Positions 2,819 through 62,763 of a stretch of 62,763 nucleotides of DNA are shown in pieces. This stretch comes from a virus. Position numbers and translations under genes: made by a program. A model generated the notes under the pieces. That model was not told the DNA's origin and did not search any database. It saw only the letters and a list, made by a program, of their open reading frames with translations. Position 1 is the stretch's first letter; the number at the start of each line of letters is the position of its first letter. The stretch covers positions 1 to 62,763 of IMG/VR virus record IMGVR_UViG_3300044641_003586; one strand, written 5' to 3'.

Positions 2819-3460
2819 TTACCGCATCCAACAATGTTCAGGCCATTGCTCTCGATACTCTGGTTCATCCATTGGTTCTTTAGGACACCAAACTTTCATT
2901 TTTAGATCGCAATGACAGATCCCACAGTTTTTTAACTGATGATCGTTTGAAGTATGTTGCGAGGTCAGGAATTGATTGATGCTGCTCACTAAACCTCTTG
3001 TTGCGCAAGTCACACAAAACTCAGTAACTCTGTCTGTGTTTTTCGGGCATGAAGCACAAATAGCAGCCCTGCGTTCTGCTTCTTCTTGATTGACCAGATT
3101 ATTAGCCAAGTAAGGCTCAATAGCAGAACGATAAAAGCGGTTCATCATCTGCCAGGCACTCACTTTGCGTTCTTGTTCAGGATCGCGTTCTAGGCACAAA
3201 TCTGGACGATACTGGCAAAAGGCTGCGTGCATCGCAAGCCCAAGGTTAACGGGGATTTGCACATTGTTTCCCTTTAGATGGGCCTTGACCTGCCTGAACA
3301 GTTCAACCCATGCCATATTCACAAAAACCGTGTTTGTGGCTTCTACATGGTAAAAGAAACCATAGGTATCACCTGTGATGATGGCCGTTGGAAACATTTC
3401 TTGTAGGCGAGCATGGGTGAACTCGCGGGGGATTTCAGTGCGGCGGATTAGCTCTTTCAT
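2819..3460 (-). CDS. Cysteine-rich putative zinc-binding protein
   Basis: A 213-residue protein of unknown function. The C-terminal third has three cysteine clusters: CASC near residue 135, CVTC near residue 148, and CGIC-X-C with a later WC and HC near 180-211. They probably hold one or more zinc ions. The N-terminal part is helical with no recognised motif. Its start overlaps the stop of the giant gene upstream by four bases (ATGA), so it is the last cistron of the long leftward late operon and is probably made with the giant protein. A structural or assembly partner role is plausible but is context only. Confidence 0.72.
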   Translation of the reverse strand: MKELIRRTEIPREFTHARLQEMFPTAIITGDTYGFFYHVEATNTVFVNMAWVELFRQVKAHLKGNNVQIPVNLGLAMHAAFCQYRPDLCLERDPEQERKVSAWQMMNRFYRSAIEPYLANNLVNQEEAERRAAICASCPKNTDRVTEFCVTCATRGLVSSINQFLTSQHTSNDHQLKNCGICHCDLKMKVWCPKEPMDEPEYREQWPEHCWMR

Positions 3461-6400
3461 GGTGTAGCTGTGCGACTACGATACCCGCGATACACTTTCT
3501 TCAATGCCCGATCACGAATTTGATCGGCTTTATCATGTAAGAAGGCTTTGGCGCGTTCAGGGTCCATTTGCAAGGCGCGTGGTCCATAGCGTAGAATCAT
3601 CGCTTTATAGCCCTTTCCAGTCTCAAAAGAATAGGCATCAGCTTCTTCTTGAGTCAGGCGACGACGATTGCGACCTTTGCCGACCATCCGGTATTCAGCG
3701 TTGGCTGGTGTAAGCCAGATGTTGCGGGAGTTGAGAGCACCAAGGATCTGATAGACAGGTTCAGTCTTTCCAACAAGGAACTCGCGAGAGCCTGGCAAAG
3801 TGTTGGCCTTGATTGGATCTCCAAGGATATTGTAGTAATCCTCGCCTACATAGCGGCGATAGAATGGGACTTTTCCAGCAAACTTCTCCCAGATGGTTGT
3901 GTATTTGCGACGATTATCGTCCAAGATGTAATCCACATCCATGAATGGTTTTGGAATGAAGCCACCAACCCAATTTGCTGTTGTGGCACCAATGTTCTCC
4001 CAGAACTGCTCTGTTGGATCACTGGACGATACTGAACGACCCATGAGAGTTCCAAGTCCTTGAAGGGCAGGCAAGTCAAGAGTTGAGGACAAACCAGATG
4101 CGGCAACGGATAGTGCTACATCCAATTTGGATTTATCGTTCCACTTGTCAGGCGAGAAGCGGATAATGTCAGATATAGCTCCAACAGCAGCAAACAGTTG
4201 GCTATATGGGGAGTTCTGGTAGTTCCAGACATACCATTTACCACCAATCTTAGCACCAAGTCGGTATTCCAGTTTGCCGCTTTCTTGAAGCTGCCTGCGT
4301 TTATCCGTAGGGACGTTCTTCAAGCCACCATTGATGAAAAATCCGCGTTCTTCATCATCAGGCTCATCTGCGATAGCTCGCAGCAAAATAGAACCAGCCC
4401 CCACAAAAAACATACCAACCATCTGATTGCGCTTAATCATGTCGTAAAACGCTTCTTTACGATCAGCCAGTTGATTGTTGCTGGCCTCCCATCCGCGAAG
4501 TATTCCAACAAACGGAATGAAGCTCAATCCTTGATTAAATTTATTGCTGGCAAATCGGGCGAATCTCAAGCCGATCATGTTGATTGCATTGTAGGCAATA
4601 AAGTGAGCGACAAACATTCCAGCCAGCTTTGCGTTTTCAAGCGACATCGGCCCAGCAACAGCAGCTTTGAGCTTTTGTTCTGCCAACTTACGGCGCATGA
4701 ACTCTTGCACTTCAACATCTGCACTGCGAATCTTGTTGTAAACGATTCCGCCAATGCCAGTTGGATTCATTGTCATAGCGGATTCACTCGCGAAGAAGTC
4801 GGCATTTTCCAACTTTGCCCCTTCTTTGTTCATTGCCTCATACATCATGGCTTCAGCCGTTGCATTGAGAAGCGCTCTTTTCTCAGAGTTCATCTGAGCA
4901 AAGTATGGATCTGAAGCAAGAATCTGTTGGCGATAATGCTCCAACGAAGCCTTCTCAAGAATGCGTTGATGATCTTCAGGATTCTTTGTCCCTAGTCGAA
5001 CTGCCATTGATAGCATTCCACGCTTTGTCAAAATGGTGTTGAATCCATCAAGAGCAGTCATCATTCGGCTAATCATAACCGAGAATTTACCCATCCATTG
5101 AGTCACCTTCTGGGGATCATTAGCCATTGCTTCAGCCACCTTGCGATAACGAAGCACGTCAGCCCATCCACGGAAGATGCGATCTGGAGCAGATGCTTCG
5201 CTTTCAAGGAACTCGACACGACCCGTATTCAAATAATGCCATGAACGCTCAAGTGCTTCTGGAAACGCTTCAATGTAACGCTTAATGTCATTTAGTGAAT
5301 CAAAAGTAGAGTAGAAAGCCCCTTTGAAATCGCCATTTATCAGATTCGACATGATCTTCATTGGCAGATTGACCATGATGATATTGGCCCCGTTTAAGAA
5401 AGCCAAGCCAATCGCAATCATCGTATTCCAACCAGCCAAGACAGAACTTGTCCAGAATGCAGATAGACGCTCACTCCAACCAACCTTTGTGTCATTGACC
5501 AAGGCAAAGGCTAGGTCATTAGCTGCTTGATTTCTCTTGTTCTTGGGAAGCGTTTCGTCTTGAAGAATATCAACGAGCCTTTGAATATTCTCACGCTCTG
5601 CTTCTGTGAGTTCCATTTTGATGCCAAACTTCTCGCCCAATATGCGCGTGAAAGCATCATTGCTAAGAGCATTCAAATTCAAATGCTGGATAACCTGCAA
5701 ACGAGTCTTGTTTAGAACATCACCAGCATGACGGCGTTTAGCCCTGTCCAACTGTTGAGTATAGTTATCAATGATTTGATTGACTACCTTATCAAGTTGC
5801 TGCTGCCACACATCAGCGAACATATCCGCTAAGCGTTCTTTTACCTCTGAATCCACACTAGCTAGGTCTGGATTTGCCATAATTGCATCCAGAACTTTTT
5901 GGCGATATTCCGCAACAGATTTAGCTGGCTTACTAAGCAGCTCTTTCCAAGGAATTGGGCTACGCAATGGGACTTCAAGTCTGGTGCGAACATTGCGAAT
6001 TTCATCCAACATCTTTTGAAGTGCTCTTGGGCCTTCAATCATGTCGAAGACTCTAGTGCGCTGTCTATCGCGGCGTTCGCGAGCTGCTGTGTTGAACAAG
6101 CTCTCAGCTAAATCAAATGTGACTCCCAACTTATCAAGACGTTCAACAAATGTTTTCAGATCTGTCGGTGAAGAAACTTGATCGGTGAAAGCGTCAATAA
6201 CTGTATCTCCATCAACTTCTTTTTCGAGAGCATCTGGTCGAATATCACCCCTAGTATAGATGATTCTTCTGGCCTGATCTTTTCTCATTTCAACCGAACG
6301 GACGGCAGCACGGGAGGCAATATCAAAGTATTTCTTTACCTGTTTTGGCGTGAGATTGAACCTGGACAGCTTTTTGGCAAAATCATCCATCGAAACAGGA

Positions 6401-9400
6401 TTATCAGCCTGCTCAGCGACAAGGTTGGAGATTTCCAAGCGGTTTTGTTGCTCAATCCTCCACTTGGCAATCGCTTCATCTATTGCCTTTTCAGCAAGTT
6501 GACGACCTGTGTTTCCAGTCTTGTTCCACCCTTGTTCGGTAAGATTTTCATTTGCAGCAGCTTTGTCAAGATGAGCCATTAGCTTATTTTTTGCTTGCTT
6601 AGAAATCTCTGGTCTAGGATCGAGAAGATCCTCGCGTGAAACGCCAGATTCCTCCATTGCCAACGCAATCGCCCTTTTAGCTGCGGATGGAGAAAACGCC
6701 AGCGTTGGAGTCGGCGGCATAATTTTATTAAGCTCTGAATCCAACTCTGATTCTTCAATTCCAATTTCAGCCAACATCTCACGCACTTTCTTGCGTCCCT
6801 CGCTCCAAGAAGAAGCATAAACGCGAGCTTCACTCACTTGTTGGGCAAATGTCATTGCCAACATGCGTCCAAGCGAATCAGCATCAGTGGTTTTATCCAC
6901 CTTAATGTTAGCCAACAACGTGCGTTTAATGCTCGCAATAAGTTGCTGAATGCTAGAAATCTTTGATGGTTTTGCCATTGCTTGCTTAGCTCTTTTGAGA
7001 AGGGCATCAGCAACATTATCTACAATTTTCTCGCGAGTATCGTCGCCAGGCTTGAACAAGTCAGCCATTGCTTCTTCAATAGTGACTTGAGTGAATGTTA
7101 TATCTTCACCTTTGTTGGCACGATCAGTTGCAACATTGATAGCGGCATCCACTTTGGCTTTAACATCTTCTCTACCAGAAAGGCTAGAGTTGAGCTTTTT
7201 AAGTGCAGCGGACAGTTTAGCGTCAATCTCTTTTTCAAGAGCATTGGCTTCCTCATCCGACATCGCCATGATAGCATTGTATTCTTCATCTGAAACAATG
7301 GATGCCATTGCTTGATTGCCTGCACGGATGAGTTTGCGGCGATTGATGATGGCTTTGATTTTTAGGAATGACTTAATACTTTCAAAAGTATTTTTATCTT
7401 CTCCAGAAAGAGCTTCTTGGCCTTCTCGGAATAGCGCAGCATCTCGATCTTCTTGCGCCTGACCTTCAACCTCATTTGCAGTTGAATCAGAGACTCCTTC
7501 AACAGACCTGCGAAGCGATTCACCAATTTGAATGCTGACAGACCCTCCCATTTGAGAGTCGATTGCATCGACAGCGTTTTTCAACGCATCAGCCTTCCAA
7601 GAATCAAGCATCCAACCATATTTGCCATTGGTGGATTCCCAAGCACGATAGCCCATGACTGTTCCGCCAATCGTTCCAGAACCTTCATAGTAAGTGGAAA
7701 CATTGGTGTAAGCGTCATTGAGTTTAATGCGAGTTACATCATCCTTCGTTGTTAGAAGTGCTGAGTAAATCTTCGCATTCAACGGTCCCGCAACAGCTTG
7801 AGTAGCCAATAGCTTTTCTTCTGTTCCAGAATCAGCCATGTATTCATTGGCAAATGATGGATTCGTGATGGTATTCGCAATTTCGATTAGAGCATCGGCA
7901 TAAGACTTACCTTTTGCTTTTTGAGCGCGAATCATTTGATTCACGAAATCTTCAGCAGACTTTCTGACACCGCGATAATCAACGCGAGCATGAGTCTTGG
8001 GAGTTACACCAGTAAATGATAATCCTTCGTATGGAGTTTGTTCTCCTTCTGTTACAGATGCTTTCAGATCACTTGCCAGCTTGCTTGCAATTTCTGGCAC
8101 TTCGTTAGAAGGAATCATCGAAGCCATCGGTCCTTTGCCAAGTAGCACAACAGAGCTAACGCGATCACCGTCTTTATTGACCACCGAGAAATCACTCTCG
8201 CCTGCATTCAGCAAAGCAGAGTTGTTCTGATACATGGTCTGAACAGCCTCGCTGAACTCTTGCTGAGTCATGTCTGGCAGAGCTTCTAAAGCAGCTTGGT
8301 AAAGCTCGGAAAGCGGGACGGAATGACGCCCAGGCTTGCGAGACATGTTGTATGCACCTTCCAAAGCGGAATAAACATACATTTGGCGAGGCGTGAACGT
8401 CACCATTGACGCTGCCATCTGACCATTTGCGTAAGATGCCTCAGACTCGCTGGAATGAACGATTGGCAGAGAGAGACGGATGTCCGGCGATGTCGGCTGG
8501 AAGCGTTGCGAGGGAGGGATGATGTTGCCTGCGTTGTCTTGCACAGACACCGGTAATTTCAACCCCCCCTGCTCACGCTCATCGAAATCTGTGTTATAGG
8601 AATTAAAAACCGCCCAATCTTTGAGATTATTTCTCTGCGTGCGATTTAGCGGTCCTCCTTCGGTCATAACCATGTTTTCTTCCCAGCGGAACTGCCCTGC
8701 TTTGATTGCTCTTACTATGCGCCAGCCTCTCCCAAAGGCATATCCAACTCCATCATCGAGGTTTTTTGCTTTGAAAAATTCCTTGGCGAACACCGAATGG
8801 TTGTCCACAGGGATGATTCTTCCGTCTGGAAGAATCCAAACACCATAACCTTCCATACCACGGTTGCGTGCGCCTAAAGTTCTGTTTTCGACATCAAAAG
8901 CGCGTGAAGCCTTTTTTTCAGCAGCCTTCGCAGCCTCATCCACCATCCGCCGTGCCTTCTCCATGTCGCCAGCCTCAACCGCCGCGAGGTATTCGGCGTC
9001 TGTTGCGGGGGCAGCCATGCTCATCTGCGCTCCACCGCTACCGAACATGACAATCGCATCTTCTGGCGCGATGTTCTCGCTGGAGTAAGGCGCGGTTGCA
9101 GCGCGTTGCTCGTCGGTCATTGATTGTCTGGCTTGAACATCGCGGGCTTCGATTTCGCCAGCGAGACTACGATAAACCATATCAAGCCCTTCATTGCGCT
9201 TATTAAGAAACCAAGAGGTTCCAAACCGATCTTCAACGCGATTGATTGCAGAAAGCAAAGCAGCACGAACTGAGCCTTTGTCTAAGGATAGATTTTTCTT
9301 TTGTGCCGCCCAAATTTCATTAACTGTTTTTTGAATTTCTTCAATGCGATCATTTAGACTTTGAACAGCTTTTTTGTTCGGGCCACCAAAACCCAAAAAT

Positions 9401-12400
9401 CCGGTTTTTTCTTTCTCCTTTCGAACTTCGTCAACTAATGCAGCAATCTGCTGTCGGTATTTATTGATGGCTTGATAGGATTGACGGAATTTAACCGCAT
9501 CCAACAAGTCGGCCTTTGTCAGTAGGTTGTCTGGAGAACCACCTTTGGCGAAGCCTTCATTATTTTGTATGTAATGCTGAAGCTCATGGAGGATAGTAGA
9601 TAGTGACTCATCACTAATCTGGTCACCATCAAGTGTGACAGTGGCAGTAATAATACTGTTGCCGTTGACGGCACGATGCGATCCTTGAACAATATTTCCA
9701 CTGATCGGGAAAAATGCTATATTAGCTGCGTCAGGATATGCCTCAAACAACAATGGATGGTTTAAAACATCCGATATTTTGAGATATTGACCAGATTCGA
9801 GTCTGTCCACGACCTCTTTCCAAGGGAGGTGGCTAAATGCAGGTCCGCCATAAACCTTGGTGGATGCCTCGCGGAATGCCTTAGCATCAATGAAGGAGGC
9901 ATCATTGTCCGGCACTTCCCATCGCATCTTACCATCAAGTCCAGGGAACCAGCCCGTAGCAGCACGGATTTCCTCGCTGCTCTTGCCAGCAGCAGCCATC
10001 GCCTTCGCTGCATCGAGCGAGTCACGCATGAACTGACGGCGTTCTTCAGGAAGGTTCTCAATGGCTTTTTCGCCAATAAAACTCATCATCACATTCCCAC
10101 CATCTCTCGTTTGGTCAGTTGGAGTTGTTAAAACTTGCCCGTTTTCCTCCAGAATCTTGACTAGGTTCTCGTCAAAGATGACGTAGTTCCGCGTACCCTC
10201 TTGATCCTTGCGAATCAAGTCAGACAAAGCCTGTTCAGCGTAGCGTAGTGCGCTCTGATTAGTCGCGGACGGGTCGCGTTCAACGTCAGCTTTGCGGGCG
10301 GAGACTTCCGCCTTTCGAGCGCGAATTTCCAAAGGAGAAACGCGACTTTGCCCGTCAGCGTAGCGAATGCCGGGGATGCCGAGGGATGCGAGGTATTCGG
10401 AAGCTGCTTTTGCGGTATCTGTTGGCGTTGCTCCATTGCCACGAACACCTCGAATCAAATCATACAATCCCGATCCACTAGCCGTTGCGTCATTCAGCCA
10501 CAAATCAATCAGGTTTTGAACATTTACTGGCGCTCTAGGAATGCCCAAAGCAACGGCTTTTTCCCGTTGAGACATCTCCTTTCCTTCCATCTCAGCTTTC
10601 ATTTTACCCGTAAGGTCCGAAAGTAGGTCAAAAAAGACTTGCTGAACTTTTTCTGGCTGCTCACTCAGCGGCTTGTCCCAGTCTAAAAACTCGTCGGCGT
10701 CTGGCAGGAGTTCGACGGTGTAGAGGTTACCTCGTTCTTGGCCTCGCGCTTCCCGCATACCCCATTCAAGCGCAGCGGTTGAAGCCTTTGGATATGCAGA
10801 GCGCAAATCTTCGAGCGTCACTTTGCCATTGGAGGCAATAAACGATTTTGCCGCCTCGGTAAATGCAGAGTCGTAATCGTCAGGCTGACGCGGACGAAGC
10901 TGCTCTTGATAGGTTTTGGCCACCCTCTCACTTTCCGCAAAGTAAAGCCCCCATCCGTAAGCCTGCGCACCCTCGCCCGTGCCGATCTTGGCCGTTGTGA
11001 ACTTGTCCACCTTGTGCGGCGTTCCGTGATATGCGCGAACGCTCAACAGCACATTCCCACCGTCTTTTGTTTGATCGGCTTGTGCTTTTGTAGAGCGAAT
11101 CAAACCATTGCGGACAAGTCGCATGACATCCTTCATATCTTTGACCGTTGGCTGATTGCGCTTGCCAGTGATCCTGCGCCAGATTGCTGTCAAAAGCTCA
11201 AAGAATTGGCCCCAGATGCCATCCTTGGGAAGCACAGTGGATTGATCGAGTTTCTGATTTACGATTTCTTCAATCGCCTGGAAATACAACCTTGGATCAG
11301 AACGCCAGTTGGCATACTTAGTGTAAGTCTTGGCTAAGTTGTCCAAGGCTTCTTCACTGAAGATTGTCGCAAGGAATCGGCGCATTGCCACCATCTCACT
11401 TGGAGTCAAGTGCAGCATCCCCTTATGGATGTTCTCATGGCGCAACACACGCCTTACAGCAGCTACTTGAGGCGAAATGCCTAGCTCTTGAGCCGCTTTA
11501 CGGTCAAGATCGTAAACCACTACTCCATCTGTAAAAACAAATGGCGTGTTTGTCGCATCGTCGAAAAGACCTTCAATTTTCTTGTTGGTTTTAAGCGCAT
11601 TCCAAACTTGAGGATACAGTTGCTCATTACGAGGGTCAGCCAAAAATTCTTCGCGTGTAGTGACAACAGTGAAGAAGACATTAGGAAGCTCCTTGCCATC
11701 CTCAATTAGCCGCATGGCTTCATTTGCATCTTCTCTTGTGACTGTTCCAAAAACAGGATTGGTTTTCGTTCCAGCCTCAAGACTATTAAGAGCCTTGAGG
11801 TTTTCGTCCGAGTCTTTCTTTTGCTGCTTCGCGTCCTCCTTGTTTTGAGCCAAAGATTGAGGAGTTGACAAAGTTTCAGTTTCAGGTGAAACTTCGTCAA
11901 CCGTGGGAATCGACCCTTCCACGGGTTCAGCCTGAACAACACCGGGACCCCCCGCACCTTCGCGCAAGGGTGCGGGGGATGATTTTTCAGCTACAATGGG
12001 TTCAGCCACAGGCGCAGTCACCCCCTCAACTTCCGCTGCTTTCTCAGTAGGAACGACTTGTTCCGCATCAATCTGAGCCTTCCTTTGATCGGCAGTTAGC
12101 TTGGGTTTCTTTGGCATTTGCTCAACGCCAACGTCAGTAATAACAGGACTGCCTTTGTAAATTTCAACAAATCCCCTATTCACAAGGGCATCAATTTGAT
12201 CCTGACTTGCTGTATTATTATTAACAGCTTTAAGGTCTGAAGCATTGCTGGTGTTCTCAGCCTTGAGTGGCTTGTTTGGATCAAAGCGTTGCTCGCCAAA
12301 CTTGGGGCCAGTTAGGATAAGGGCAGTTGGATAACCATCCTCATCGTATTCATAGGTGACACGCATCTTGTCGTCTCCTACTTGGACGACATCGCCAATA

Positions 12401-14478
12401 TCTAAATCTCTGCGTGGAATCAAAGTAAGTGGCGCGGTTCGATCACTGGCAGATTTGTAAAATTCAATCGTGCGCTGTTCGGCAGTTTCCATCTGCTGCT
12501 CACCTTCTTTAATGAGCGAGGTGCCAGCTTTGCGAGCCTTGAAAGCCTCAATGATGGATTGCGCTAAAACAGTAGGATCGTTGCTTGGAATCAAGTTGGC
12601 CTCATAAGCCAAGCCAGTAATTTCATCCATGTTGGCGACATTTGTTCCCTCGCCGTAATCAAACGAGAAAAGCCGCCTCTTTACGGGGAGTGGCAATTCA
12701 TCTAAAATGCCTAATGCTTCAGCTTCGGCAGTTGCCTTTCTACGCTTAGCTTTTGGAACGAATACAATGGGTTTTCTGGCGTAATTCTCTTTAAGCCAAG
12801 TGATAATATCAGGAGCTTCCCCCGGTTGTTGCCGGGGGAGTCCTGCTTTCAAATCTACTTCTTCTTGGGCTTCGACTTGCCTGCCGACGACAGGGCGATT
12901 GCCACCGCCTGTTTCTGCGGTCGCCCCTCCTTCATCAGTTTCGATACGTTCTTGCTGACTGTCTTTTGGGATTTCCCCTTGTATAGTGGCATCTTGTGTT
13001 GGTATTGTTGGTGTTGGTGGTATTCCCACAGCGGGTGCTGCGGCTTGCTCCATTGTTGGAGGAAGTTGTGCTTGAGGCTCTGTGACAGACGCAGGAGTGA
13101 TTGGCGCAGGCGCAGGCGCAAGAGTGATTGGCGCAGGCGCAGGAACTATTGCAGCTTCAGCCGCTTTATCTGCCGCCAGTCTTGCTGCCTCTGCATTGGC
13201 TTTATCTGCCGATTGCAATTCAGATTGATTGATTGTTTCTTGAGCTGCTTGCGCTGATAACTGAGTATCAGGATTCTGCAATGCGGGATTGAGCATGTAT
13301 TTTGCACCCTCAATCGTTTTGTTGGCAGCAGATATAGGAACAGAAAGGGCCATTTCGCCCAGACCTTCTAGGAAGGCTTCTGTGGTGTCGATTTCTTGTC
13401 CAGCAGCAGCTTGGGCTGCAAGCTCCCCACCAACGGCAGCACCAGTTTCAATAGCGGAACCACCAGCCAAGCGAGCTAGATTGCCAGCAGATGAGAATTG
13501 TTTCTTCGCTGCTTCAGCAGCAGTTCTGGTTGCTGTTCTCAAAGCAGGATCAAGCAAAGCCTTATCCACTGCTTCTTTAGAGGCAATGTCCACACCAGCA
13601 TCTACCAGTTTCTTTTGAACAGCTCGCGCAGCAGCACGTTCTGGCATGGTCATCAATTTACCAGATCCCTTCATGCCAAGAGATTCAACAGCACCAATTA
13701 CCGTGCCTCGAATAGCTCCAGTTTTTAGACCCTCATCAAGAATATCAGGATTATCTTTGAGATAAGTCGCAATTTGGTCAGCCGTCATGTTGGCTGCTGC
13801 ACCTTGAGTGCGCTCATTCAAAACATCATAAATGGAAGGACCAGCCTCCATCAGAGTGTTAGACAATGCTCCACCAGCAATCGAGCCTGCAATGCCTGTT
13901 AGAATAGCTCCTGGACCAAGTTCAAGACCGCCAGCACCGCCAACCAATCCACCAAGTGCTCGACCAGCTAACTGAGTTCCAGCACTGATAATCACATTCG
14001 GAGCAGATTGAACGGCTGTCTTAAATGCAGCTCCCGGTTCAGCAAGAACGGCTGCTGGGTATTGAGCAAGAGCACCAATGTATTCAATCGGACCTTGAGC
14101 TTCTTCGCCTGCTTTTTTAGCCTCCTCAAGTCGGCGCATGAACTCAACATCTTCTGGAGTTTGCGCGGCCTGTTGCTCACGTTGCAGCTTGCCCATTTCA
14201 ACCATTTCAGCAGCTACATCTGCGGTGTCTCCAGTGAGAGCATTGAAGGTTGCCCCTACACCTGATGCCATCTGGCGATAGCCAAGTCCTAAAGCTGTTC
14301 CAAGCTGAGAAAAATAACCCGGAGTTTCACCAGTTGGCTGTTGAGGAGCTGTTTGCCCTCTTTGCTGAAGAATTTGCTGAATTGCTTCATCATAATCTTG
14401 CTGCGTTGGTTCAGTCTCCGTGTTGAAGGTCACGGGGTATTCAAGACCGTCAACTGTAATGGGAACTTGCCAAGGCAT
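3457..14478 (-). CDS. Giant polyvalent virion/ejection-type protein with ADP-ribosyltransferase-like and HExxH domains
   Basis: 3,673 residues, the largest gene. Residues about 135-235 are Gly/Ala-rich and hydrophobic, as in membrane-penetrating segments. A zinc-protease-like HENIH lies near 1015. Residues about 1146-1445 match the ADP-ribosyltransferase-like domain of phage polyvalent proteins: AYHGTPH, then [18 protein letters not shown], then GIPGIRYAD and [13 protein letters not shown] second HELQH sits near 1631. Long helical stretches cover about 2250-2950. Hydrophobic segments near 3026, 3312 and 3359 precede a basic C-terminus. Short junction motifs ([21 protein letters not shown]) separate modules. 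Known family behaviour: such multi-domain proteins are packed in the virion and delivered into the host with the DNA. It could be mistaken for an N4-type virion RNA polymerase, but I see no polymerase motifs. Confidence 0.85.
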
Positions 14479-20793: not shown

Positions 20794-21761
20794 AAAAAAT
20801 TTCTAATTATGTCATAATAAACTGCTTCACTTTCATCTCTGAGAAGACGCAAACGATACATTTCTTTTGAAAGAGAACCATCAGCAAGCATTTTGTTTGC
20901 ACTTAAAAGTGCTTGTTGTGGATCGTTAATTTCTGGTATTCCCAATAAATTAGCACAAGTTGATATGCGATAATTTTTGACACTTGATGTGAGAATTGAA
21001 GGAGTTCCAGAAGAATTGGCGGCAATAGCTCCGTGCAAACGAGTTGATACAACTATTTCAGCACTAGAAAACGTGGTTATGAGATCATGGTAACTGCCAA
21101 TCATAAACGGTAAATTATTCTGCATGGCAAATATAGCTTCTGAATAAGCATGGCAAACTAAAGACCAACCATCAAGAACTGCTGATTGTAAAAAATCGCC
21201 ACTTATAGGAACACTGCCATGTGGAGATTTAGCATCTTGAAAAACAAGAATCTTGCCATTCTTTTTGGTATTTTTTTTAGGAAAGCAAAACAACGCAGGA
21301 CATGGTAATGCCACACTTTTTACTCCTAAATCAACAAGCGTTTTGTTTAATTGATGATTTCGACAAACAACAAGACATTGATCTCTTTTCATAAGAGAGA
21401 GAATCAAATCGTTTGGTTTTTCATTTGGATTGCAAGAACCTATACCTAAAAACATGACTGGTGTATCAGGTTGAGTCAACAGATGCTCAATAATTGGTTT
21501 TGTTCTCCAAGAGTCCCATTCTGGAGTTCCGGCAAAAATAATCAAATCCCAAGGCAGTTGAATATTTTTATGACCAATATGCAAAGACACCGGATTGCTT
21601 CTGCTTGCATCTAAATCTGGATTTCTGTTATAGAAAAACCAATTACATTCACCAATAACATTTTGAATCAAGTTTTGAACGCCTTCTCTAATGAAGTCAT
21701 CACCTGGATTCCAACCATTAGTCGTGCTTACCAATATATTGAGTCGTTGCGAACAAGACAT
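20775..21761 (-). CDS. Polysaccharide pyruvyltransferase-like protein
   Basis: About 328 residues from MSCSQRLNILVS (21761); an in-frame ATG at 21788 is also possible. It carries hallmarks of the CsaB/PssM-type family: ILVSTTNGWNPGDDFI at the N-terminus, a central FLGIGSCNP, and the C-terminal VSTRLHGAIAANSSGTPS. Known members transfer pyruvate from phosphoenolpyruvate to sugars as ketals; some relatives are sugar transferases. Placed between two glycosyltransferases, it probably modifies the same glycan. Its base composition is visibly more A/T-rich than the capsid genes, hinting at separate acquisition. Confidence 0.78.
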   Translation of the reverse strand: MSCSQRLNILVSTTNGWNPGDDFIREGVQNLIQNVIGECNWFFYNRNPDLDASRSNPVSLHIGHKNIQLPWDLIIFAGTPEWDSWRTKPIIEHLLTQPDTPVMFLGIGSCNPNEKPNDLILSLMKRDQCLVVCRNHQLNKTLVDLGVKSVALPCPALFCFPKKNTKKNGKILVFQDAKSPHGSVPISGDFLQSAVLDGWSLVCHAYSEAIFAMQNNLPFMIGSYHDLITTFSSAEIVVSTRLHGAIAANSSGTPSILTSSVKNYRISTCANLLGIPEINDPQQALLSANKMLADGSLSKEMYRLRLLRDESEAVYYDIIRNFLCKQHR

Positions 21762-22431
21762 CTTCGACAGTAATTTTTTTAATATCATGTTTATGAATTG
21801 AAATAGTATATCCGCAATGATTTCTCCATGAAATGGGAACTTTGTCCATTAAAACTATATATGGTTTTTTGATACTAGCTGCAAAATGCGATAAACCTGT
21901 ATCCACAGTGATAAATGATTTAGCGTGAAAAATCAAAGTAGCCAATTCATTTGGTGGCAAGACTTTACCAAGCATAGAAGTATCAGCATTTTTAATCTGA
22001 ACTTTGTTCCATTTTCCAACCTGTATTACCGGAGCGTCCAATCTATCAACAAGTGATGCCCAATTATCTTCACTCCAGTGTCTCTCTTTAGTAGATGCTT
22101 CAGCGCAAATAACATAATATGGCTCTTTATGTGAGGTTTGAATCGGGATATTCAAATCTGGTATTAAATCTGATATAGTCAGTTGATTTAATTCAGCTAC
22201 TTTAGTTACAAGATTTGAATTTCCATCGCAGATCAGTTTGTATTCAATATCCGCAGGTTCTGGCTTTGATACAATTTTGATTGTGTAAGGATACCACTTC
22301 AAGAAATCGCCAAAAACAGATTGAACAATAATCTCATCGTTATGGTGCTTTTTACAGATAGCTCTTAACGCTGGTTCTGAGCAAATAAAGTCACCTAAAA
22401 AACAATGCGTTTTTACTAAAACACGACTCAT
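21718..22431 (-). CDS. Family 9-like (heptosyltransferase-type, GT-B) glycosyltransferase, short form
   Basis: 237 residues, shorter than the usual 320-350 of ADP-heptose transferases. The N-terminal VKTHCFLGDFICSEPALRAI matches the family's GD-containing loop. The C-terminal half has VICAEASTKERHWSEDNWASLV and FITVDTGLSHFAASIKKP, the donor-binding D-[ST]-G-x-x-H signature. It is coupled to the Thr-rich protein gene by an ATGA overlap at 22428-22431. It probably transfers a sugar to a phage or host acceptor. The loss of part of the N-terminal domain may mean a simplified acceptor site. Confidence 0.8.
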   Translation of the reverse strand: MSRVLVKTHCFLGDFICSEPALRAICKKHHNDEIIVQSVFGDFLKWYPYTIKIVSKPEPADIEYKLICDGNSNLVTKVAELNQLTISDLIPDLNIPIQTSHKEPYYVICAEASTKERHWSEDNWASLVDRLDAPVIQVGKWNKVQIKNADTSMLGKVLPPNELATLIFHAKSFITVDTGLSHFAASIKKPYIVLMDKVPISWRNHCGYTISIHKHDIKKITVEDVLFATTQYIGKHD

Positions 22432-50348: not shown

Positions 50349-51368
50349 ATGAAAACACTAAGCCGCACAGTTGACGAATTGACCCACACGCCAACCAACA
50401 TCCGCACAGCTGCCGCTCGCAGCTTGCGCCGCTATATACTGCCGAGCGGTGACGCCTCGTCGCTGCGCCTCGCGATTTTAAGTCGCCAAGGCGTGAAACT
50501 TAACGGCGGCACGCTCAAATCCGCACGATACTACGCACAACGCAAAAACGACCCATTGACCGAACCCCTTAAAAAGCGACACGACGAGCGAGGATTCCAA
50601 CTGCTTTCCAAGCTTGGAAAAGACCGAGCAGGGGAAATGGTCACTTTCGAGATCGAATGTTTTCTGCCACGCAACAGCGTGCAACCACTGAAGGAATCTT
50701 TGCCGCTAGCCGTGCAAATGGTAAGCGATGGCAGTTTATCGAGCGCAGACAGTCCAAGGACGCGTGAAATGGAAGGGATCGAACTTCGCATTCCGTGCAG
50801 CGTGACCGACTACTCCCGCCTATTCCACGTCTGCCGCCTACTTTCGCTCCACGGCGCTAGGGTAAACAAAACCTGTGGATTGCACGTGCACTTTGACATG
50901 CGTGACCTTTCACCGCTCAAACGCTACGCAGACATTAAAGCCGAGGGTGCAAGGCTCCACTCCGTCATCTCCACAGTCGGCCGCTACCTCGTGCCCCCGT
51001 CAAGGCTCAATAATAGGTACTGCGCCCTGACCCCGCCCTCACTGCGCGACCGTTATCGCGCAGTGAACGCCGAGTCCACAGGCAAACACGGCACGCTGGA
51101 AGTTCGCTTGCACAGCGGGACCGTCGAAGCAGACAAAGCCCGACTTTGGGCGGAGTGGTGCCTTTTCTTCCTGCGCCGCCCTCTCTCCAAGTCGCAGAAA
51201 ACCAGCCTCTCAGCGGTGCATTCTCCTGCCGCTGCTCTCGACTGGATTCTACGCTCCGACCTGCCCCCCACCCTCAAATGGTGGTCAGCCCAACGGCTTG
51301 AAAAGTTTCACCCTTCCGCCGTCTCATTGCCAAGCTCAGGCTCCAACGCCGCAGAAGCGAGCGAATAA
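50349..51368 (+). CDS. Amidoligase-family protein (COOH-NH2 ligase)
   Basis: 339 residues. FEIECFLPR near residue 99, NKTCGLHVHFDMRDL near 172, NNRYCAL near 222, RYRAVNAESTGKHGTLEVRL near 236 and the following HSGT are the blocks of the glutamine-synthetase-like amidoligase family. Known members use ATP to join a carboxylate to an amine, forming amide or peptide-like bonds. The next gene is a class II glutamine amidotransferase, the usual partner that frees ammonia. Expected product: an amidated metabolite, peptide or wall component. The substrate is unknown. The leader is A/C-rich without Shine-Dalgarno sequence. Confidence 0.8.
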   Translation: MKTLSRTVDELTHTPTNIRTAAARSLRRYILPSGDASSLRLAILSRQGVKLNGGTLKSARYYAQRKNDPLTEPLKKRHDERGFQLLSKLGKDRAGEMVTFEIECFLPRNSVQPLKESLPLAVQMVSDGSLSSADSPRTREMEGIELRIPCSVTDYSRLFHVCRLLSLHGARVNKTCGLHVHFDMRDLSPLKRYADIKAEGARLHSVISTVGRYLVPPSRLNNRYCALTPPSLRDRYRAVNAESTGKHGTLEVRLHSGTVEADKARLWAEWCLFFLRRPLSKSQKTSLSAVHSPAAALDWILRSDLPPTLKWWSAQRLEKFHPSAVSLPSSGSNAAEASE

Positions 51369-51406
51369 TTCCCCCCCCATAACATAACCACCAAACGTAA
51401 AAACAT

Positions 51407-52246
51407 ATGTGCAAAATTTTTGGAATCACCTCTACCGCTGGACTTCAAATGACAGCCCTTCACGGACTCATCCAGCGATCCCATAAAAGCCTGACCGCAA
51501 CTCAAAAAGACGGCTTCGGGTTCGCGATAGGCTCCGGCGACGGCAACCACTACGTGGAAAAATGGGACAACCCAGCCAATTTCCCCGGTGCGGGACAATG
51601 GCCCAGCATTCGCGCCAACCTCGCAGGACTGCCCGTTGAGGCCGATTGTTGGACCGCTGGCACATTCCCCACCGCCCCCGGCGGTGCATACATCGCACAC
51701 GCTAGGACCGCGACATGCAGCCGAGGCGCGGAGAACGCACACCCGCACAGCTCTCACGGATGGGCAGTAGTCCACAATGGAGTGGTGCAGCCTACCAAAG
51801 GCCGCACCAAGCCTTGTGATTCAATCCATATTCTTGATTCCCTTGTGACGCACAAAGGGGCCTCAAAACTCCATGCAGACGTTGCAGGTTATCTCGCAAT
51901 TCTTGCGATTGACCCCAAAGGCAGACTTTCCGCTCTACGCGACGAACGCGCCCCGCTCGTTGTTGCCTGGGTGCCGAGCTTGTCGGCTTGGGCGTTTGCT
52001 TCATCCGATGCCTTGCTTGCCGAGATTGTCAGCGCGCCGCACGATAAAGCATACACGCTGCAACCATACCGCCACGCAACCCACACTGGCAAAGGTTGGA
52101 CGCACGAGGAGGTCAAAAGATGGGACGCAAGCAAGGCAATCAGCTCCAAAGCATCCAAGGCCTTCGGAGATCGTCCTTTGCTTAACGACGAGTTCCCGGA
52201 ATACTCCGGTAGCAAGTGGCACAGTAACAAAAAATGGAGCTTCTAA
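51407..52246 (+). CDS. Class II glutamine amidotransferase
   Basis: 279 residues. Cys2 (MCKIFGITS) becomes the N-terminal nucleophile after Met removal. AYIAHARTATCSRG near residue 94 and NAHPHSSHGWAVVHNGVVQP near 110 supply the glutamine-binding Arg and the Asn/Gly of the oxyanion hole. The enzyme frees ammonia from glutamine. It sits 38 bases after the amidoligase gene, so the two probably act as one amide-forming system. The C-terminal 40 residues are basic and specific to this protein. Confidence 0.85.
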   Translation: MCKIFGITSTAGLQMTALHGLIQRSHKSLTATQKDGFGFAIGSGDGNHYVEKWDNPANFPGAGQWPSIRANLAGLPVEADCWTAGTFPTAPGGAYIAHARTATCSRGAENAHPHSSHGWAVVHNGVVQPTKGRTKPCDSIHILDSLVTHKGASKLHADVAGYLAILAIDPKGRLSALRDERAPLVVAWVPSLSAWAFASSDALLAEIVSAPHDKAYTLQPYRHATHTGKGWTHEEVKRWDASKAISSKASKAFGDRPLLNDEFPEYSGSKWHSNKKWSF

Positions 52247-53340: not shown

Positions 53341-54069
53341 ATGACACAAGATATGACCATCGAACAGTTTTGCCGCAAGCACAAAGCTTGCGGAGAAGGC
53401 CAAGAATGGGCTTTAGCCTCCTGCTCCACCATGCAGGAAGTTTGGAACAACGTCAGACCAGAATGGCTCATTTGGGTTGCAACCCGTTTGGGCGTGTTGA
53501 CCGATAAAGAGCTTCGGTTATTTGCGGTATTTGCCGCAAGGCAAGTGCAACACTTGATGACCGATTCGCGCTCAATAGCAGCTATTGATGTTGCAGAACG
53601 GTTTGCGAATGGCGAAGCGAGTGTCGAGGAACTTGAAACAGCATACGCAGCAGCAAGGGCAGTAGCAAGGGCAGCAGCATCGGCAGCAGCATACGCAACA
53701 ACAAGCGCAGCAAGGGCAGCAGCAAGGGTAGCAACATCGGCAGCAAGGGCAGCAACATGGGCATCAGACGCAGCAACATCGGCAGCAAGGACAGCAACAA
53801 ACGCAGCAAACGCAGCAAGGGCAGCAGCATACGCATCAGACGCAGCAGCAGAAGCAGAAGCATACGCAGCAACAGGAGCAGAAGCATACGCAGCAGCATG
53901 GGCAGTAGCAAAGGCAGTAGCAACAGACGTAGCATCATGCGCAGCAAGGACAGCAGCAGACAACGCAAGGGTGGCAGCATACGCAGCAGCATGGGCAACA
54001 AACAACGCAGCCATGAAAGAATCTCAAGCCACATGGCTCCGGGAAAACACCACGCCTAATTTTCTATGA
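53341..54069 (+). CDS. Phage protein with long alanine-rich helix
   Basis: 242 residues. Residues 1-100 form a conserved head (CGEGQEWALASCSTMQEVW, then ARQVQHLMTDSRSIAAIDVA). About 101-225 are Ala-rich repeats (ARAAASAAAYATTSAARAAA) with an 11-residue tendency, giving a long amphipathic helix. The DNA is a GCA-rich simple repeat and opens spurious frames on both strands. I have seen similar head-plus-Ala-rich proteins in other phages; the function is unknown. It is coupled to the next gene by ATGA. Confidence 0.72.
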   Translation: MTQDMTIEQFCRKHKACGEGQEWALASCSTMQEVWNNVRPEWLIWVATRLGVLTDKELRLFAVFAARQVQHLMTDSRSIAAIDVAERFANGEASVEELETAYAAARAVARAAASAAAYATTSAARAAARVATSAARAATWASDAATSAARTATNAANAARAAAYASDAAAEAEAYAATGAEAYAAAWAVAKAVATDVASCAARTAADNARVAAYAAAWATNNAAMKESQATWLRENTTPNFL

Positions 54070-56655: not shown

Positions 56656-56914
56656 ACACCACGGAGAAGGGCCGTGTAACACTGTGAGCGGCGATGGCAG
56701 TGGCGATGGCGATGGCGATGGCAGTGGCAGTGGCGGTGGCTATGGCTATGGCAGTGGCTATGGCAGTGGCTATGGCAGTGGCTATGGCGATGGCAGTGGC
56801 GGTGGCTATGGCTATGGCAGTGGCTATGGCGGTGGCTTTGGCTACGGCGATGGCAGTGGCAGTGGCTATGGCGGTGGCTTTGGCTACGGCGATGGCAGTG
56901 GCAATGGCAATTAA
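56633..56914 (+). CDS. Gly/Tyr/Ser/Asp-rich low-complexity protein
   Basis: 93 residues from MSNSLRVKHHGEGPCNTVSG (56633). Residues 21-93 are built from GYG, GSG and GDG units (GSGYGSGYGSGYGDGSGGGY). The DNA is a run of 6- and 12-base repeats, so copy number may vary. Proteins of this composition often phase-separate or form flexible linkers. It lies just before recT, in the recombination run. It could also be a non-functional expansion. Confidence 0.55.
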   Translation: MSNSLRVKHHGEGPCNTVSGDGSGDGDGDGSGSGGGYGYGSGYGSGYGSGYGDGSGGGYGYGSGYGGGFGYGDGSGSGYGGGFGYGDGSGNGN

Positions 56915-60145: not shown

Positions 60146-60601
60146 ATGAAGTTACACATTGGCATCGACCCTGGGCAGTCAGGAGGAATTGCCATCATCC
60201 CCGACAATAATCCCGCAAAAGCGTGGGCCGTAAAAATGCCTGATACACTGGCTGATTTGTGGGATGAACTGAGCAAGCATGAGCCTAGATGGGCTGGTGT
60301 TGAGGGCTTCGTTGTCCACGCATATCTTGAGCGTGTCCACTCCATGCCGGGACAAGGAGTTGCTTCATCATTCAAGTTCGGCCAAGGCTTCGGCCACCTT
60401 GAGATGGCACTCACCGCTGCACGCATTCCTTACACTTACGTCACTCCTCAGAAGTGGCAGAAGGAGCTTCAATGTCTCACCAAGGGTGACAAGAACATCA
60501 GCAAAGCGCGAGCACAGCAGTTGTTCCCGCATATCAAGGTGACTCACGCGATTGCAGATGCCCTGCTCATCGCTGAATACTGCCGGAGGACCATGAAGTG
60601 A
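60146..60601 (+). CDS. RuvC-like Holliday-junction resolvase/nuclease
   Basis: 151 residues, an RNase H-fold nuclease. GIDPGQSGG gives the first catalytic Asp (residue 8), AGVEGF the Glu (53), and HAIADALLIAEY the last Asp (138). VTPQKWQKELQCLTKGDKN is typical of phage RuvC-like proteins. It resolves branched DNA during recombination and packaging. It lies in the same rightward run, about 0.8 kb before the IS110/Nop-like gene and the repeat array, so it is also the only obvious nuclease that could work with them. Confidence 0.85.
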   Translation: MKLHIGIDPGQSGGIAIIPDNNPAKAWAVKMPDTLADLWDELSKHEPRWAGVEGFVVHAYLERVHSMPGQGVASSFKFGQGFGHLEMALTAARIPYTYVTPQKWQKELQCLTKGDKNISKARAQQLFPHIKVTHAIADALLIAEYCRRTMK

Positions 60602-61388: not shown

Positions 61389-62288
61389 ATGAAAACAAAT
61401 AATAACATCATCACCAACACTGAAACCATCCGCCCACTTGTTCGCGGATTCTACGATTTGCAAAAGCTACGCATCCACACGGGCAACCGTTTGTGTGCTC
61501 AGTTCAGGTCCAAGCTAGGGCTGCAATCTTCCGAGAAGGAAGAAGAAGATGAAAAGGCCGAAGAAGTCCTCGACATCATTCGTGCTTCATACAAGAAGCT
61601 CACCGATGGGGTGAAGAAGGAATTGCCAAACATGAAGTCCTTCGTGGGCGACGAGGTGATTTCCGACTACACCGAGCTTTGCCTTGTCTCGCAATACATT
61701 GACCTTGAATCCCGCGAGAGCACACACCTTCGCCGCATCGAGAACATCGTGCAGGAACACCCATTGTGGGATGCGTTCTTCGCAGGCGTCCGTGGTTGCG
61801 GTCCAACAATGGCAGGCGTAATCTTGTGCGATATTGACATTACTCGCGCTACCTATCCAAGCTCTCTCTGGCAATACTCAGGTTTTGGCGTTGAAGCAGA
61901 TGGTCGCGGCACCAGTCGCCGCAAAGAGCACATGCACCGCATCAGCTACTTGGACAAGGAGGGCAAGCCTGCCGAGCGAGATGGCATTCGCTACAATCCT
62001 TGGCTCAAGACCAAGCTGTATGTCCTTGGCACTTGCTTCGTCAAGGCTGGCGGCTTGTATCGCAGTTACTACGACAACTACAAGAACCGCTTGGAGAACA
62101 GCCCGAAATGGGTGGAATCAAGCAAAGGACACCGACACAACGCCGCGATGCGTTACATGATTAAGCGGTTCCTCGTTGATCTTTACAAGGCTTGGAGGCC
62201 GCTTGAGGGTCTGCCAGTTGCGCCAGAATACGGCGAAGGCAAACTTGGCATCATCCACGGCCAAGTGAAGCTGCCAATGGCGGCATAG
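61389..62288 (+). CDS. Nop/IS110-C-terminal-like protein, TasA-like
   Basis: 299 residues from MKTNNNIITNTETIR (61389). Residues about 15-125 are helical with a charged loop. Residues 126-275 match the pattern shared by the C-terminal domain of IS110 transposases and by Nop5-type RNA-binding proteins: WDAFFAGVRGCGPTMAGVIL, then LWQYSGFGVEADGRGTSRRK, then WLKTKLYVLGTCFVKAGGLY and YYDNYKNRLE, then MIKRFLVDLYKAWRPL. No RuvC or HNH domain is present, unlike TasR or TasH. A 36-nt-period array follows 19 bases after the stop. I infer the RNA-binding protein of a TIGR-like system. Alternative: a domesticated IS110-like DNA-binding protein. Confidence 0.75.
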   Translation: MKTNNNIITNTETIRPLVRGFYDLQKLRIHTGNRLCAQFRSKLGLQSSEKEEEDEKAEEVLDIIRASYKKLTDGVKKELPNMKSFVGDEVISDYTELCLVSQYIDLESRESTHLRRIENIVQEHPLWDAFFAGVRGCGPTMAGVILCDIDITRATYPSSLWQYSGFGVEADGRGTSRRKEHMHRISYLDKEGKPAERDGIRYNPWLKTKLYVLGTCFVKAGGLYRSYYDNYKNRLENSPKWVESSKGHRHNAAMRYMIKRFLVDLYKAWRPLEGLPVAPEYGEGKLGIIHGQVKLPMAA

Positions 62289-62306
62289 ATTTTGTCATGC
62301 TTGCTT

Positions 62307-62623
62307 AGTCACCCATCACCGTCGAGCGAGTCAATAACGCTGAGTCACCCATATGTTACGAGCGAGTCAATCAACGTAAATCATCCCTCACAGAGAAGCG
62401 AGTCAGGAGCACGCATACACCCATTAAATCGGAGCGAACCATAAACCATCTAGCCACCCAAGCTGGTTAAGTGAGCCTAGCGCCTAAAGTCACCCAAGAT
62501 ATATGAGCGAGTCATGTCCAGAAAGTCACCCCAGAGGGCACTAGCGAGTCAGTATGCTAAAGCCAACCAAAGCCCATTTGCGAGTCAAGTGACTAGAGAC
62601 ACCCAACATCTTGTAGCGAGTCA
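62307..62623. repeat. TIGR-like array: about nine 36-nt units of two 9-nt repeats and two 9-nt variable segments
   Basis: Units begin at 62307, 62343, 62379, 62415, 62452, 62488, 62524, 62561 and 62597 (steps of 36 or 37). Each unit is repeat 1 (consensus AGTCACCCA), a 9-nt variable segment, repeat 2 (consensus AGCGAGTCA), and a second 9-nt variable segment. Units 3 to 5 have decayed repeats (AATCATCCC, AGCGAACCA, AGTGAGCCT). A degenerate repeat 2 (GTCA, 62294-62297) with a 9-nt spacer precedes unit 1. On the complementary strand both repeats contain TGACT, compatible with box C/D-like kink-turns, so the guides may be read leftward. The strand of transcription is not known. Confidence 0.8.
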
Positions 62624-62763
62624 ACTATGAGCGATACTTGACACCCTGACCGTCCGGGGTAATGGGCGGGTGTGCCGGGTAGCTGCGTGAGAAACAGTCC
62701 GGTCAAAATCGAGCCTAACTTTAAATGCTGCCCACCTTCCGGCGACCTCCTTGCTCAGGATTT
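62624..62763. other. Array trailer and window end
   Basis: After the last clear repeat 2 a degenerate GACACCCT (62640-62647) may be a final repeat 1. GACCG near 62648 can pair with CGGTC near 62699, enclosing G/C-rich sequence. No gene is visible; if the array is read leftward its promoter should lie here or beyond the window. Confidence 0.4.

Follow-up and report, generated by a model that had tools for sequence, protein, structure and literature searches.

A nuclease-free TIGR-TasA system at the end of a tailed-phage record, its cassette turnover, and a possible target, beside terminase genes of other phages, for guides of a sister clade

TIGR-Tas systems combine a Nop-domain Tas protein with an array of paired spacers from which short guide RNAs (tigRNAs) are made. 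In related systems the tigRNAs are cut by a host RNase in a process that requires Tas, and targeting of both DNA strands has been published for TasR and TasH (Faure et al. 2025, PMC12045711). The same study leaves open the targets of TIGR spacers, the growth of the arrays and the purpose of TasA, the solo-Nop form of the protein. Here we describe a TIGR-TasA locus at the 3' end of IMG/VR virus record IMGVR_UViG_3300044641_003586, of which the whole stretch of 62,763 nucleotides was analysed and is called the window. The locus is ordinary in appearance but new, and its close relatives make the three questions of spacer targets, array growth and TasA purpose testable. We put at about 0.9 the probability that this is a TIGR-TasA system on a tailed phage which most likely interferes with rival mobile elements in a shared host.

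The protein of 299 amino acids has its codons at 61389-62285 and its stop at 62286-62288. In a phmmer search against the PDB it matches TaTasR (9mty) with an E value of 9e-12 and TasH (21kl) with 2e-8. A profile built from 46 homologues finds TasR 9mty at 2e-26 and TasH at 1e-19, with IS621 at just 0.25. The AlphaFold2 model, made from 46 sequences (pLDDT 84.3, pTM 0.77), is nearly all-helical with a single short strand pair, and therefore contains neither RuvC nor HNH; Pfam also finds no nuclease domain in the protein. When the model was searched with Foldseek, TasH was the best match (1.5e-10) and TasR the second (2.7e-8). Below these came IS621 and ISCro4, at 5e-3 or weaker, and Nop56/58 and Prp31 as weak matches. 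The original prediction, which had called for such a structural comparison and had proposed a TasA-type member without a nuclease, is thus borne out by sequence, profile and fold alike. Because the protein lies near TasH and TasR and has no nuclease domain, it is TasA, a solo-Nop Tas as defined by Faure et al. (2025, PMC12045711), and the locus is a phage TIGR-TasA system.

Could the protein instead be a transposase of the IS110 type, with an array that is a side effect of repeats in a mobile element? Its PHROG family (phrog_4285, matched at 2e-39) carries the label 'transposase', and IS621 is a weak match in both sequence and fold. However, TasH and TasR fit orders of magnitude better than IS621, the model has no DEDD or other nuclease fold, and a dual-repeat array accompanies the protein in most relatives. 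We find this explanation hardly credible. A split TasR, completed by a linked RuvC-like gene at 60146-60601, was also considered and rejected; this gene adjoins just two other tas loci, both close relatives.

The array is made up of nine 36-37-nt units with dual 9-nt repeats, and its first full repeat, at 62307, lies 18 nt past the tasA stop. Alternating repeats of 9 nt with spacers of 9-10 nt next to tas agree with the 8-12-nt repeats and about 9-nt spacers typical of TIGR-Tas arrays. With dynamic programming the chain of repeats scores 135.6, whereas 400 shuffles of 62286-62763 that preserve dinucleotides yielded no chain at all. This confirms that the predicted array exists, and the spacer sequences agree with those listed in the prediction. 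For comparison, arrays beside tas genes were parsed in 98 loci, some records being counted more than once; approximately 80 related arrays supply the results below. The dual-repeat architecture is found beside tas in the 98 loci, with the consensus repeats A[GA]CGAG[TC]CA and AG[AT][AC]A[AC]CCA.

Which repeat separates the tigRNAs, and which lies within them? Among arrays with tas DNA at least 75% identical, 183 of 230 neighbouring spacer pairs are retained across the AGTCACCCA-type repeat, versus 89 of 226 across the AGCGAGTCA-type repeat (odds ratio 6, Fisher p 1e-18, from pairs that are not independent). Given this retention, and the truncated GTCA with which the array opens, AGCGAGTCA is the edge repeat and AGTCACCCA the loop repeat. 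The opening layout, ATTTTGTCA followed by 9 nt and AGTCACCCA, is common to the relatives L013, L015 and L008. The array holds nine tigRNA cassettes, eight full and one with a truncated first edge, and each tigRNA joins the spacer B of one originally listed unit to the spacer A of the next. The original A/B pairs were half a unit out of phase and therefore have to be shifted ahead of any target search, and the last spacer B that had been called unclear is simply the end of the array, which closes on the edge repeat at 62615-62623. Both window repeats have the form AG...CA, with box D and box C ends in common. Edge and loop ends vary together in some loci (CCG/CCG, CCT/CCT, TCT/CCT), although not every locus fits; joint variation of edge and loop box C has been published (Faure et al. 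2025, PMC12045711).

Cassettes are inherited as whole tigRNA units, and the arrays are renewed faster than tasA. Phages with the same protein, no array and no spacer turnover had been named as evidence that would count against the system; each of five relatives with TasA 95-98% identical has an array, and the spacers differ from those of the window. All that the window has in common with these five is its last two cassettes, with point changes. Likewise, four relatives with tasA DNA 92-94% identical share only the last two window cassettes, and other clades have replaced most cassettes while their tas DNA is still 97-99% identical. Repeat decay is stronger towards the 3' end in 45 non-redundant downstream arrays (36 versus 5 untied, Wilcoxon p 6e-5). 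Upstream arrays show no such 3' decay (9 versus 6). In CRISPR arrays new units enter at one end, and the 3' repeat decay seen here resembles that pattern. With RecT and an exonuclease among the genes of the window phage, arrays might recombine with one another.

Guides that regulate the phage's own genes, through the timing of transcription or replication, would be compatible with a nuclease-free TasA, for which binding to self need not kill, and gene regulation is among the possible roles given by Faure et al. (PMC12045711). However, with up to 2 mismatches allowed and in the geometries examined, the window genome contains no match to any of its cassettes, which leaves the phage's own promoters unsupported as the targets that had been suggested. 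The search of paired spacers against related phages, also proposed originally, compared 1032 cassettes with 0.77 Mb of phage contigs that bear tas, among them the window, and found no excess over shuffled pairs; nor was there any for self or relative-phage targets when tas-flanking DNA was also scanned in several geometries. Fast spacer turnover would also be odd for self-regulation, and we regard this role as very unlikely.

Signs of how the two spacers might meet on a target were sought in 622 dereplicated cassettes with two 9-nt spacers, with B shuffled within arrays as the null. The final bases of the two spacers (A9/B9) are Watson-Crick partners in 211 cassettes versus 148.6 +/- 8.7 expected (z 7.2). 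This is the sole outlier among 81 position pairs, the next having z 2.1, and the control across the edge repeat gave z -0.3. The signal is present in three bands of TasA identity (50-90%, z 4.8; 45-50%, z 4.5; 30-45%, z 6.1). On the simplest reading, A and the reverse complement of B would adjoin head to tail on the target, with its central base pair in common, making a 17-bp site. In clades related to the window's, though not in its own, the covariation appears to support split-spacer binding of opposite strands, and the spacer pairs would reflect a contiguous target read on two strands that overlap by 1 bp. Alternatively, A9 and B9 might form an RNA-RNA base pair within the tigRNA, with no overlap of half-targets. 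To judge from the published TasR structure, both bases would come together in the middle of the ribonucleoprotein, where contact is conceivable. G-U pairs, however, are not enriched (44 seen, 52.8 expected), and the candidate natural target described below has exactly the 17-bp overlapped spacing, though it was searched in that spacing alone. A pair within the RNA therefore seems to us rather unlikely.

The candidate target comes from a sister clade, L060-L069, with TasA 52-54% identical to window TasA. For a recurrent cassette family of this clade, the 17-bp pattern WGGAGMGAGATNGTCTG has 27 matches in viral contigs. About 20 of these lie in scattered places, mostly within coding sequence, as do the 22 matches of another cassette family, TMGWGGTC/AGCGAACTA, which was rejected as a guide to targets and served as the chance control. 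The remaining 7 fall at one homologous non-coding place upstream of the terminase large subunit gene (TerL; phrog_9, E 1e-58 to 1e-66). They belong to two lineages with TerL 52% identical, and in L216 a portal gene comes after TerL. In L216, L219 and L226, from three metagenomes, the contig stops 1 nt past the site; in the other four the sequence continues into a G-run, CAGGGGGGGTAG. This is what a cohesive end (cos) would look like. L219 and the tas locus L060 come from one metagenome, and the record number of L226 is adjacent to that of L106/L107. The exact cassette is held by L064, with tigRNA spacers TGGAGAGAG/CAGACCATG, and by L107; L061 fits the other allele of the site in 15 of 16 guide bases. 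Up to three variants of the family are found within single arrays.

We lean towards the view that this cassette family targets a conserved site abutting apparent genome ends, possibly cos, beside the terminase genes of other phages. Our confidence goes no higher because several patterns were scanned, matches within a group are not independent, one half of the site consists largely of purines and the large metagenomes make up much of the collection. The site would be the first candidate natural target and, if true, would imply RNA-guided interference with DNA packaging. Might the guides instead serve host takeover, by targeting host chromosomal genes? The host search covered one 17-mer in five metagenome-assembled genomes (MAGs) with related tas genes, which leaves this some room. 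However, the sole structured target match is viral, and fast turnover together with several drifting variants of one cassette per array fits a fast-evolving target better. Host genes are thus unlikely targets.

Interference with rival elements remains the reading we prefer, and it could work as follows. The array would be transcribed downstream of tasA and the transcript cut into tigRNAs of approximately 36 nt, edge-A-loop-B-edge, one of which would be held per TasA dimer. Spacer A would pair with one DNA strand and spacer B with the other, so that a short split site is bound. Having no nuclease, TasA would act by occupying or bending this site without cutting it. Rival elements in the shared host would be hindered, for example when sites such as the packaging (cos) end are covered, and the guide list would be renewed through replacement of whole cassettes, mostly away from the 3' end in the window's clade. 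More specifically, fast-changing TasA arrays may bind 1-bp-overlapped split sites at the cos/terminase end of rivals and block packaging or genome entry, with new whole cassettes arriving near tas and old ones decaying at the far end; this version is tentative, and we would sooner expect some part of it to fail.

Three results weigh against extending this to the window. Two window guides, TGTCCAGAA/AGAGGGCACT and GTATGCTRA/AAGCCCATT, were scanned in viral contigs and gave either no match or scattered matches at chance level, and neither the window nor its clade has a cassette for which a target came to light. The A9/B9 covariation is missing among the 33 cassettes of the clade to which the window belongs (z -1.2). 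Lastly, the guides behind the candidate cos target come from a clade with TasA just 52-54% identical to that of the window.

Two further candidate targets were tried and dropped. Coding targets with synonymous drift gave z 3.65 in one loose test, and two neighbouring cassettes of L009, AGTTCCGC.TAGTATTT and AATTTCGC.TCGTTTTC, differ at third codon positions alone; when stricter tests were made on independent pairs, p was 0.2-0.5. For TTACGACYA/GAAAACGCT, 5 of 9 viral matches lie in PolA, which had suggested a motif of phage DNA polymerase. The number of matches is at chance level, and no other cassette of any array fits the phages concerned.

Table 1. Coordinates of the TIGR-TasA locus in the window
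Feature	Position	Strand	Basis
tasA, 299-aa solo-Nop TIGR-associated protein (stop included)	61389..62288	+	phmmer, profile, AlphaFold2 model and Foldseek, PHROG
5'-truncated edge repeat GTCA that opens the array, followed by spacer TGCTTGCTT	62294..62297	+	sequence; layout also in relatives
TIGR array, loop AGTCACCCA and edge AGCGAGTCA alternating, 9-10-nt spacers	62307..62623	+	sequence, chain score, shuffles
First full cassette: edge AGCGAGTCA, spacer A ATAACGCTG, loop AGTCACCCA, spacer B TATGTTACG, next edge	62325..62369	+	
Two oldest (3') cassettes, GTATGCTAA/AAGCCCATT and AGTGACTAG/ACATCTTGT	62543..62623	+	in all five sampled relatives, with point changes

The window ends 140 nt past the array, inside the position of a hairpin in L015, and has no terminator within it. 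The L015 hairpin (4376-4450, about 100 nt past the array) is stable, with z -3.2, and reads GCTGCCCACC...GTGGGCAGC then TCCTTTTT. It is terminator-like, with a T run, and is without an Rfam match; the Rfam search as a whole gave no relevant match. L008 has an equivalent hairpin of similar layout and different sequence.

The rest of the record is that of a tailed phage, with terminase, primase, helicase, RecT, exonuclease VIII and tail fibre genes. At 50349-52246 an amidoligase gene stands beside a glutamine amidotransferase-like gene (phrog_2443, phrog_4736), a pair that is uncommon in phage and is perhaps involved in peptide or cell-wall modification. The minus strand of 3457-14478 is one open reading frame of 3673 codons, unusually long for a 63-kb phage. 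Low-complexity tandem repeats are present at 53647-53997 and 56690-56909, GCAGCA-rich and TGGCNATGGC-rich.

Other tas loci have features of their own. The named Microcystis phage Mvi-JY20 (L129; PP438412.1, around 21367-22424) contains an unannotated TIGR system, in which the hypothetical protein XAI95461.1 is a Tas homologue with an array behind it (edge TGCGAGCCA, loop CGAAACCCA). In L012 (IMGVR_UViG_2894657497) arrays at 4420-5000 and 6000-6530 flank one tas gene on both sides, and L038, from an Acidipila MAG, has three arrays with an unusually high share of complementary A9/B9 pairs. The tas homologues of L092, L093, L094, L097 and L100 have no dual-repeat array detectable within 2.5 kb, and may have stem-loop arrays or none. 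In L081 and L102 the array upstream of tas has no stop in the tas frame and would translate into a repetitive N-terminal peptide (QATH..EAR..), so annotated starts in such loci may be wrong.

Of the known systems, the IS110/IS621 bridge-RNA recombinases and the box C/D Nop5 small nucleolar ribonucleoproteins are linked to the window system, weakly, by a Nop-type RNA-binding domain. They differ from it in that the window system has no DEDD nuclease, no kink-turn small nucleolar RNA and no bridge RNA, for which no specific search was made. TaTasR (PDB 9mty) has a Nop domain and a dual-spacer array like those of the window; unlike them it has a RuvC nuclease, UG/CCA boxes and an 18-bp target without overlap. 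The nearest fold match to window TasA is the TIGR-TasH of Salicola phage CGphi29 (PDB 21kl, 9w04), a published TasH reference locus with repeats almost identical to the window's (edge AGCGAGCCA, loop AGACAACCA). The CGphi29 protein has an HNH nuclease, whereas window TasA has none, and the CGphi29 spacers end in a near-fixed A, leaving 8-nt guides, unlike those of the window. The TIGR-TasA systems of Faure et al. (FpTIGR and others; PMC12045711) are alike in their solo Nop protein, dual 9-nt repeats, 9-nt spacers, 36-nt unit, truncated first edge and phage location. The window is a different locus from these, unmatched in the annotated phage records searched. Faure et al. saw no obvious spacer covariation and give an 18-bp site for TasR (PMC12045711), whereas here clades related to the window's, though not its own, covary at the spacer junction. 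Cassette turnover is documented here beyond what was described for those TIGR-TasA systems, and the relatives of the window locus offer new testable answers on the evolution of the arrays, together with a first candidate for the role of TasA.
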